From a virus: a DNA stretch of 26,421 nt. Both the position numbers and the translations under genes were made by a program. Shown one piece after another: positions 284-26,218 of this stretch; positions within the stretch are counted from its first letter, which is position 1, and each line of letters starts with the position of its first letter. The stretch is from the IMG/VR virus record IMGVR_UViG_3300049617_000041, positions 1 to 26,421 of that record; one strand, 5' to 3'. The notes below the pieces were generated by a model. It searched no databases and was not told the origin of the DNA. It saw nothing but the letters and a program-made list of their open reading frames with translations.

Positions 284-639
284 GGGATTGATGAATACAC
301 CATGGACCAGTTTCACCTCCCCTGGGGAAATTCACACGCTCTCGCCTTTCCGCCTGCATCATGTTTCGCGTTTGCTCGGCTATGCCCCAGACCAAATAGC
401 CTTCCAAATGTCCACTGCCTTGACCGCCTCGCATGGCCGCGGAATGCCGGCGAAGGCACCGAGTAAATTATTCGGCCGTCTTTCCATTGTGGCGATGCCT
501 TCGACCGAGACGCGGGGCAAGAAGTCAGGCCGGGTTTTGCAGCATGAGTGCGGCAAATTTGCAGTTTTCAGTAAATGCCGTATGTTCTCAAGTCGATTTT
601 GAACATCTCCATCTCTGGTCGCTTGGGGAGAATCGCTGA
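284..639. other. 356-base stretch without a convincing gene
   Basis: A 104-codon open frame starting at 288 covers most of this stretch, but its predicted product has no recognisable fold, no convincing ribosome binding site and no family pattern. I see no strong terminator or repeat. It may be decayed host sequence or an intergenic promoter region for the membrane protein at 640. Confidence 0.4.
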
Positions 640-12105: not shown

Positions 12106-12137
12106 AAAAGGCCACCGATTTTACTCGGTGGCCTTTT
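12106..12137 (-). terminator. strong intrinsic terminator after the major capsid gene
   Basis: On the minus strand, AAAAGGCCACCGA pairs with TCGGTGGCCTTTT (13 bp) around a 6-base loop, so the T-run is part of the 3' arm. It ends 23 bases past the capsid stop and about 13 bases before the glycosyltransferase start, so that gene depends on read-through. Confidence 0.85.
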
Positions 12138-13444: not shown

Positions 13445-13483
13445 GCAAAAGAAAAGGCGGATTGCCGAGAAGACAATCCGCCT
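13445..13483 (-). terminator. intrinsic terminator between prohead protease and capsid genes
   Basis: AGGCGGATTG and CAATCCGCCT form a perfect 10-bp stem with a 9-base loop, followed by TTTCTTTT. Another hairpin with arms ATGCAGG/CCTGCAT lies upstream at 13518-13536. It separates the protease transcript from the capsid transcript within a 216-base gap. Confidence 0.8.
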
Positions 13484-23800: not shown

Positions 23801-23810
23801 TAAATTAGTT

Positions 23811-23845
23811 AAACCCGATGCGTTTTCCGACGCATCGGGTTTTTT
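23811..23845. terminator. bidirectional intrinsic terminator
   Basis: AAACCCGATGCGT and ACGCATCGGGTTT form a 13-bp stem with a 6-base loop. The + direction ends in six T in a row; the minus direction has a weaker AT-rich tail. In the minus direction it ends the transcript of the PD-(D/E)XK-like gene. Confidence 0.8.
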
Positions 23846-24665: not shown

Positions 24666-24693
24666 TTTACGATCTTTCCTACTGGGTTATAAT
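24666..24693 (+). promoter_or_regulatory. sigma-70-type promoter for the SWIM gene leader
   Basis: -10 box TATAAT (24688-24693) is a perfect consensus; TTTACG (24666-24671) 16 bases upstream is a fair -35. The transcript should start near 24700, giving a leader of about 110 bases before the ATG at 24809. Confidence 0.75.
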
Positions 24694-24699
24694 GGGATA

Positions 24700-24799
24700 G
24701 TCAAAATAACGCCTATCCACACTACTGGGCGTTCCCGAAAAGCGGCTTCGGCCGTCAAGTCCCGTCAGTCGAGTAGTGTCGGCTGGCGGGCGTTTTTTT
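24700..24799 (+). ncRNA. leader RNA with terminator loop complementary to upstream segment
   Basis: Terminator stem CCCGTCAGTCG (24761-24771) with CGGCTGGCGGG (24780-24790): 11 pairs including two G-T, followed by CG and seven T. The whole 8-base loop AGTAGTGT (24772-24779) is the exact complement of ACACTACT at 24719-24726. That segment lies in the loop of a possible upstream hairpin AACGCC/GGCGTT (24708-24713 with 24728-24733). A UUCG-capped hairpin (CGGC-TTCG-GCCG) lies between. The Shine-Dalgarno GAGG follows the T-run directly. It is either an attenuator for the SWIM gene or a short RNA of about 100 nucleotides. Confidence 0.65.
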
Positions 24800-24808
24800 G
24801 AGGTAGTC

Positions 24809-25015
24809 ATGCTGGAACTAAAAAGGGTCAAATCGTCGGATGGCATTAAGGAATACGTAATCAGTCTCGACGGCGAGCGGCTACATTGTTCGTGCGATGG
24901 ATTTAAGTTTCGTCGGGCCTGCTCCCATGTTAAGGGAATAAGTCAATCCGAAATCGAACATTTGGCGCAAGAGGCTTATGAAGCCGACATACATTTGTTG
25001 AAAGACGATGACTGA
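24809..25015 (+). CDS. small SWIM zinc-finger protein
   Basis: 68 residues from ATG 24809, chosen because GAGG lies five bases upstream; the frame extends to 24776 but that part overlaps the terminator. The motif HCSCDGFKFRRACSHVKGI contains C27-x-C29-x8-C38-x-H40, the SWIM zinc-finger signature, which acts in DNA or protein binding. The rest is acidic helix (SEIEHLAQEAYEADIHLLK). Its messenger has a regulated-looking leader. It is followed closely by another small gene with a good GGAGG site, so the two are likely one unit. Confidence 0.7.
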   Translation: MLELKRVKSSDGIKEYVISLDGERLHCSCDGFKFRRACSHVKGISQSEIEHLAQEAYEADIHLLKDDD

Positions 25016-25296: not shown

Positions 25297-25869
25297 ATGA
25301 GAGTTCTCCCGATGGCGTTTGCTGGCGTTCTGTGCCTGTTTTCCGGCGTGTTGGCTGGTCCAACGTCCAAACCCTCAACCAAACCGGCCGAAACGCAACC
25401 CGTGACCTTTGTGCCAAAGGTCGGTATGGCCATGTGGGCGGTCGAGAAAAAGGCGGGAATGAAGGCAATCAACATGCGCCAAACCTGTCGGGCTGGAAAT
25501 ATCCAGTGCCAAGCATGGCGGCTCACTGCAAGCGGCGTTGAATACGCTCTGGCGGTTGATGCTAAGGGCGTGGTGCGTGACTTGACGGTTATACCTGCTC
25601 CGGGTTCTGATGCAGCTAAGGCCATTTCACCACCACCTACAGAAATACATGAGGGTATTACCTTAGCCGATGCAGAACGGATTGCCAAATCTAAGGCGGT
25701 GCTTTCAAGCGGTACTGACTTTGATAAAACCTATACCGTCTCGATTTGGGATAGGTCGTCGGCCGATGAGGACATTGAAACGCAATACTTATTCTCGATT
25801 CGCAATTCCACCGGGCGGATATCGACTTGTACTTATTCCGTGTTCCATCATCCGAAACCGGGTAAGTAA
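25297..25869 (+). CDS. secreted protein carried by the prophage, hypothetical
   Basis: 190 residues from ATG 25297 (AAAGGTGG lies six bases upstream; a GTG at 25288 is less likely). The N-terminus MRVLPMAFAGVLCLFSGVLA is a clear Sec signal peptide with a cleavage site after the final Ala; no lipobox Cys follows. A Pro/Thr-rich linker (STKPAETQP) leads to a domain of about 150 residues with two cysteines (TCRAGNIQCQAW) and GITLADAERIAKSKAVLSSG, followed by TYTVSIWDRSSADEDI and a strand-rich end. No family recognised. A secreted protein in a phage early region could be a cargo gene that alters the lysogen. Confidence 0.65.
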   Translation: MRVLPMAFAGVLCLFSGVLAGPTSKPSTKPAETQPVTFVPKVGMAMWAVEKKAGMKAINMRQTCRAGNIQCQAWRLTASGVEYALAVDAKGVVRDLTVIPAPGSDAAKAISPPPTEIHEGITLADAERIAKSKAVLSSGTDFDKTYTVSIWDRSSADEDIETQYLFSIRNSTGRISTCTYSVFHHPKPGK

Positions 25870-25887: not shown

Positions 25888-25923
25888 TTGATTTGCCATT
25901 TCACTAAAAGATAGACTTTAGTG
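25888..25923 (+). promoter_or_regulatory. promoter with palindromic operator over the -10 box
   Basis: TTGATT (25888-25893), 18 bases, then TAGACT (25912-25917). CACTAAA (25902-25908) and TTTAGTG (25917-25923) form a 7-bp inverted repeat that encloses the -10 box. A repressor bound here would block the promoter. Both boxes deviate from consensus. Confidence 0.45.
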
Positions 25924-25990
25924 CTGGCAAGCAAAACGGCATTTAGTTTTTTGGGCTACCCTGCTTGCCAGTTGGGTGGCCCTTTTTTTT
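25924..25990 (+). ncRNA. second leader RNA with terminator loop complementary to upstream segment
   Basis: Terminator stem GGGCTACC (25953-25960) with GGTGGCCC (25975-25982), followed by eight T (25983-25990). The 14-base loop contains TGCTTGCCAG (25962-25971), the exact complement of CTGGCAAGCA at 25924-25933, which would be near the 5' end of the transcript. The Shine-Dalgarno GGAG starts at the base after the last T. Same plan as the leader at 24700-24799 with unrelated sequence. Confidence 0.65.
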
Positions 25991-26002
25991 GGAGTTAATG
26001 AA

Positions 26003-26218
26003 ATGAAAACTTATGAAGTAACGTATAAGGATGCGGATGGCCATTTCGTCAGTCGTGGTGGCAATTGCATCTTGAGGCGAGTTAAGGCGAACACTTTGAA
26101 GTTGGCCATTGAAAAGAGTAAGAAACTGAAACCGCCCAAATTGGCAGCGAGGATGATCGTAAAGGAATTCGATCTGGTATCCCTTCCCTTGCGGTTCAAT
26201 GACGATGATAGGATGTAA
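26003..26218 (+). CDS. small basic protein, hypothetical
   Basis: 71 residues from ATG 26003, chosen because GGAG lies eight bases upstream; the frame extends to 25976 but would run through the terminator. Begins MKTYEVTYKDADGHFVSRGG, then a Lys-rich helix (LKLAIEKSKKLKPPKLAAR) and a strand (MIVKEFDLVSLPLRF). Looks like a small alpha/beta domain; no family recognised. Its expression should depend on read-through of the leader terminator. The next gene starts 20 bases later with its own ribosome site. Confidence 0.6.
   Translation: MKTYEVTYKDADGHFVSRGGNCILRRVKANTLKLAIEKSKKLKPPKLAARMIVKEFDLVSLPLRFNDDDRM

Follow-up and report, generated by a model that had tools for sequence, protein, structure and literature searches.

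A candidate transcription attenuator that may act through pairing with its own terminator loop in a small phage operon

Intrinsic terminators placed inside operons can set how much of a transcript reaches the genes beyond them, and the locus described here raises the question of whether one such terminator, whose loop is the exact complement of a segment slightly upstream in the same RNA, works as a switch or as a plain, leaky stop. The window, meaning the whole stretch that was analysed, is a linear IMG/VR virus record of 26,421 bases from an unclassified phage. Its left 23.7 kb consists mostly of a leftward operon with terminase, HNH endonuclease and replication-type genes (assigned by family match), among which portal-, capsid- and tail-like ORFs are interspersed (recognised by eye in the ORF list). 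From about 24354 small genes form a short operon in the rightward direction, which is cut by the contig end. A near-perfect hairpin (23805-23842) with flanking A and T runs lies between the leftward and rightward genes, and is probably a bidirectional terminator. The leader under study, the second of two in the rightward operon and here called leader 2, sits between a 190-aa gene that ends at 25869 and an ORF of 71 aa on the plus strand (26003-26218). The 71-aa product is an orphan: it has no Pfam match and no convincing PHROG match, and no relative of its gene was found among viral contigs and phages.

Inspection of the sequence, a hairpin search and folding all identify an intrinsic terminator at 25953-25990 on the plus strand, as are all leader features given below. 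It is composed of a 5' arm GGGCTACCC (25953-25961), a 12-nt loop TGCTTGCCAGTT (25962-25973), a 3' arm GGGTGGCCC (25974-25982) and a run of eight T (25983-25990), the G+C-rich hairpin and T-run that define the type. The original prediction had counted an 8-bp stem before the T8; the T-run stands, and the stem, once its innermost pair is counted, has 9 bp, of which one is U.G. The gap between the loop segment and the 3' arm, three bases in the 8-bp reading, is accordingly two in the 9-bp stem. Within the loop, segment 3 (TGCTTGCCAG, 25962-25971) is complementary over ten bases, without exception, to segment 2 (CTGGCAAGCA, 25924-25933), and G25923.U25972 extends the helix to 11 bp. The Shine-Dalgarno sequence GGAG (25991-25994) abuts the T-run and is followed by the ATG of the 71-aa gene at 26003, an arrangement that leaves no room for a promoter, so that expression of the gene would require read-through. 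The terminator, the complement of its loop and the Shine-Dalgarno sequence directly after the T-run are thus all present as first described.

Folding of longer RNAs adds a third element that the original prediction lacked, an upstream hairpin spanning about 25889-25933, in which 25925-25931 is sequestered. In its lower stem, segment 1 (TTTGCCA, 25892-25898) pairs with TGGCAAG (25925-25931) through one U.G and otherwise standard pairs, and its upper stem (25902-25923) joins CACTAAA (25902-25908) to TTTAGTG (25917-25923). The fold of 25888-25935 reaches -15.9 kcal/mol, a stability equalled by one of 2000 shuffles. For transcripts that start between about 25898 and 25910, an alternative hairpin is predicted at 25920-25943 (AGUGCUG/CGGCAUU), with GCAAGCAAAA in a 10-nt loop facing the terminator loop; a loop-loop contact between the two is possible. 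As modelled, leader 2 would have three competing states: the upstream hairpin, in which segment 1 holds segment 2, a helix of segments 2 and 3 that blocks the loop, and the closed terminator. The pairing of 25924-25933 with 25962-25971 is predicted to exclude the terminator, as an attenuator demands of its alternative helix, because the linkers, of 0 and 2 bases, are too short to bridge a helix of 10 bp. The same geometry led us to reject a pseudoknot with both helices at full length, and the earlier statement that they can hardly coexist holds in the sense that they are sterically near-exclusive. A shortened blocking helix of about 5 bp alongside the terminator stem is possible and lies outside the scope of the energy models used.

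Which state prevails is predicted to differ with the start of the RNA, and the start site therefore matters greatly. For an RNA beginning at 25924, the blocking helix is calculated at -21.8 kcal/mol and the terminator at -22.9 kcal/mol, and the two states lie within 2.7 kcal/mol under four parameter sets at 37 C. At equilibrium, the helix has a probability of 0.97 for RNA ends up to 25979, after which the terminator takes over at about 0.8. For an RNA beginning upstream of 25889, the terminator is ahead by 3-10 kcal/mol and is predicted to form completely (1.00 at equilibrium), with the blocking helix still populated at 0.3-0.8 when the RNA ends at 25971-25976. The predicted order in the growing RNA is the blocking helix first and the terminator after. 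Against shuffled controls the energy gap stands out only a little: of 1000 upstream shuffles, 20 show a gap no larger than that for the start at 25924, and with a start at 25898 (82/1000) or in the longest construct (206/1000) the gap is unremarkable. The switch between terminator and antiterminator that had been proposed thus gains support from a predicted near-isoenergetic pair for a start at 25924 and none for a start upstream of 25889, where the terminator is predicted to win. As a consequence, RNAs arriving from upstream would stop at the terminator, whereas those begun at 25924 would tend to continue beyond it. The original prediction had assumed a 5' end at 25924; this fares poorly, since it implies a weak promoter-like pair (TTGATT - 18 nt - TAGACT, 25888-25917) that scores only 8/12, with an implied start near 25924, and was not called by the promoter scan. 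The only candidate leader peptide in leader 2 is a GTG-started frame of 25 codons (25921-25998) with no run of regulatory codons and no Shine-Dalgarno sequence, and control by a ribosome on a leader peptide was rejected for the latter reason.

The complementarity is rare by two different measures. When the upstream sequence was shuffled with dinucleotide content preserved, a 10-base match to the leader 2 loop arose in 21 of 50,000 shuffles. A harder null was built from 134 terminator-like hairpins in phage loci totalling 0.94 Mb (lambda, P4 and three further phage records among them) by pairing each loop with the 75 bases upstream of every other hairpin (17,822 pairs). Only three of these cross-pairs reached -22 kcal/mol or better; the leader 2 loop pairs with its own upstream RNA at -22.8 kcal/mol, ranking first of the 134 and being the sole one to reach -22. 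The chance per terminator is thereby put at about 2e-4 to 4e-4 for leader 2 and 1e-3 for the first leader, whose 8-base match arose in 49 of 50,000 dinucleotide shuffles of its upstream sequence. In a ranking of 135 by how much of the loop is already occupied by upstream RNA when the 3' arm has yet to emerge, leader 2 comes third and leader 1 seventh; those in first, second and fourth place are weaker terminators. Exact complementarity is the stronger statistic here, compared with the energy gap.

The first leader, 1.2 kb upstream, repeats the three-part logic in unrelated sequence with a match above chance, as the original prediction of a shared design had it. Its promoter (TTTACG - 16 nt - TATAAT, 24666-24693) scores 10/12 in the promoter scan and implies a start near 24700. 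A hairpin found by folding at 24708-24733 (AACGCCTA/TGGGCGTT; -9.1 kcal/mol, matched by 18 of 2000 shuffles) holds in its loop (24716-24725) most of segment 2 (ACACTACT, 24719-24726), to which the loop AGTAGTGT (24772-24779) of the terminator at 24761-24799 is complementary. The arms of this terminator (24761-24771/24780-24790) are followed by a T-run, GAGG and an ATG at 24809. The alternative folds are calculated at -39.6 and -39.9 kcal/mol, a gap that is not unusual (126/1000 shuffles). GGGCGTT occurs twice, in the upstream hairpin (24727-24733) and at the 3' end of the terminator (24788-24794), which gives AACGCC (24708-24713) two possible partners; given this choice of partner and the nearly equal energies, leader 1 would be a cleaner two-state switch than leader 2. 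The leader (24700-24809) also contains a UUCG-capped hairpin (24742-24755), and the product of the gene that follows (24809-25012) has 68 aa and matches a SWIM zinc finger weakly, at a score that does not reach the curated cut-off.

The best explanation for leader 2, to be held tentatively and with slightly more doubt than would suit an even call, is an intra-operon transcription attenuator in the rightward, early-side operon. If segment 2 were free when the loop emerges, the blocking helix of 10-11 bp would form first and grip the loop; with 0 and 2 linking nucleotides the 9-bp terminator stem could not close, and polymerase would read through to the Shine-Dalgarno sequence and the 71-aa gene. 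If the upstream hairpin kept segment 2 engaged, the terminator would close and transcription would stop. The decision might fall to the choice of start site, to pausing or to something bound to the upstream hairpin. The rarity of the complementarity under both nulls, the near-isoenergetic states for a start at 25924, the stability of the upstream hairpin, the recurrence of the logic in leader 1, behind a good promoter, the apparent dependence of the 71-aa gene on read-through and the want of strong loop pairing at the other terminators of this phage all argue for this reading, and from these observations together with the predicted energies and folding order we infer that the folds may switch in cells and that the switch may be used. 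Against it stand the predicted victory of the terminator in RNAs begun upstream of 25889 and the failure to find a relative of leader 2 or of the 71-aa gene, hence the lack of covariation or conservation. The unremarkable energy gaps of the other two leader 2 constructs and of leader 1 also weigh against it, and so does the absence of a sensor domain, a leader peptide and an Rfam match.

Comparison with known systems places such a device in a general kind rather than in a family. Attenuators of the trp/his type alternate between a 1:2 hairpin, a 2:3 antiterminator and a 3:4 terminator, and leader 2 resembles them in that its upstream hairpin, antiterminator helix and terminator would be mutually exclusive, with a free segment 2 deciding the outcome. 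It differs in that segment 3 is the loop of the terminator and not its 5' arm, and in that it precedes an orphan gene in a phage operon and lacks the translated leader peptide with regulatory codons. By analogy, leader 2 would work like a three-part attenuator that pairs with the terminator loop instead of an arm. In the P4 CI immunity RNA, the complementary segments are reportedly not a terminator loop; judged from its sequence, leader 2 does share the self-complementarity. Like the P4 CI RNA and IsrK of Gifsy-1, which has short and read-through forms from a single promoter, it is a phage leader RNA complementary to parts of its own transcript, but trans action has been shown for those RNAs (PMC4825925), whereas for leader 2 it is hypothetical. 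The countertranscript attenuators of pT181 and pIP501 also use pairing of a leader RNA to choose between read-through and premature termination, and loop contacts are important in pT181; these systems control plasmid replication and require an antisense RNA gene (PMC3753616, PMC4981023), and none is evident at leader 2. As a start for such an antisense RNA, the minus strand offers one weak promoter match (26234-26205) with no matching terminator, and promoter-like matches are below chance level. The HMP-PP (thiS) riboswitch, a similarly small element with an aptamer embedded in a terminator beside thiamin genes, likewise has a terminator loop that joins a pseudoknot-like alternative and prevents termination (PMC6478431). 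Unlike that riboswitch, which has a highly conserved, ligand-binding loop, leader 2 has no conserved loop, no Rfam match and no thiamin gene, its downstream protein being without a Pfam match. It fits none of the HMP-PP, pT181/pIP501 and IsrK/P4 CI systems as a family member.

The principal alternative is a terminator between genes that is constitutively leaky and does no more than fix how much upstream transcript is made relative to downstream transcript, in which case the complementarity would be incidental, a copying relic or a mild, signal-free brake on termination; this is a serious contender, although we would sooner doubt it than accept it. Compact terminators directly ahead of a Shine-Dalgarno sequence are ordinary in phages and occur without loop pairing, which also tells against an attenuator. 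An unrelated phage contig has the identical stem GGGCTACCC/GGGTGGCCC after a capsid gene (379-406, minus strand), with a T-run before it, then T5 and GGAGG directly ahead of a gene, and its 5-nt loop, GTTGC, has no meaningful upstream pairing. The same phage has others in its late operon, where strong minus-strand terminators at 13456-13482 and 12110-12133 bracket the probable major capsid gene (13338-12160) and probably tune its expression; in the hairpin search, neither these two nor the other terminators of this phage showed strong loop pairing. A general excess of own-upstream pairing among the 134 phage terminators is unclear (18 against 14.7 expected at -10 kcal/mol, 7 against 4.9 at -12), so the regulatory class that the original prediction had suggested is not clearly above the cross-pairing background, and the feature is rare and local, with no class seen elsewhere. 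A leaky terminator leaves unaccounted for the low per-terminator chances in both leaders and the use of the same segment 2 by a stable upstream hairpin.

No relatives of the early proteins or of leader 2 were found among viral contigs and phages; relatives of the terminase, 20-41% identical, served as background (10 viral loci at first and 36 later, plus one genome locus). The exact repeat pair of leader 2 gave 14 matches across viral contigs, all unrelated, and its stem with any loop occurred in 17 contigs, all of which lack the loop pairing. Rfam searches of the window and of each leader separately, with the PyrR and Phe leaders among the families covered, stayed far below the gathering scores: the best match had 21.1 bits where 55 are needed, and that of leader 1 had 16.7 where 45 are needed. 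If the attenuator is real, it is a very small one (about 100 nt) that blocks termination via the loop and has arisen twice in one operon, which would suggest that phages easily evolve such switches from any terminator, and it could readily be reused as a genetic part; otherwise, leader 2 is a leaky terminator accompanied by a curious repeat.

A trans action of the terminated short RNA is improbable; on this reading its exposed loop would pair with segment 2 in a newly emerging leader of the same type, keep that segment from the cis loop and so increase termination in a self-reinforcing shut-off like that of an immunity RNA. The terminated RNA would expose a loop complementary to each new transcript, and the P4 CI RNA and Gifsy-1 IsrK are precedents in which a leader-made RNA targets transcripts from its own promoter (PMC4825925), but a stable short RNA has no support here, cis pairing should outcompete trans pairing, and no integrase or repressor that would mark the phage as temperate was identified in the window. 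The trigger by a trans RNA or protein that had been envisaged gains no support from the present analysis. More improbable still is the broader proposal that two unrelated leaders control the early-side operon by an autogenous, sequence-specific, immunity-like shut-off through the loops of their terminated RNAs; if true, such a control would need no parts beyond an intrinsic terminator and ten bases complementary to its loop.

Least credible is that the repeats are DNA half-sites for a regulator and not RNA helices, since three TTGCCA within 80 bp (25893-25898 plus, 25925-25930 minus, 25966-25971 plus) and an enrichment of TGCTTGCCAG-like sequences in the window fit such sites, but the remaining copies fall within late coding genes, and the exact terminator-loop match and the leader 1 parallel would be left unexplained. 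With one mismatch, these sequences number 7 in the window against 1.78 in shuffles, none of 100 shuffles being as high, and the copies outside the leader lie at 2895, 11164, 15510, 16241 and 20269, all in the late-gene region.
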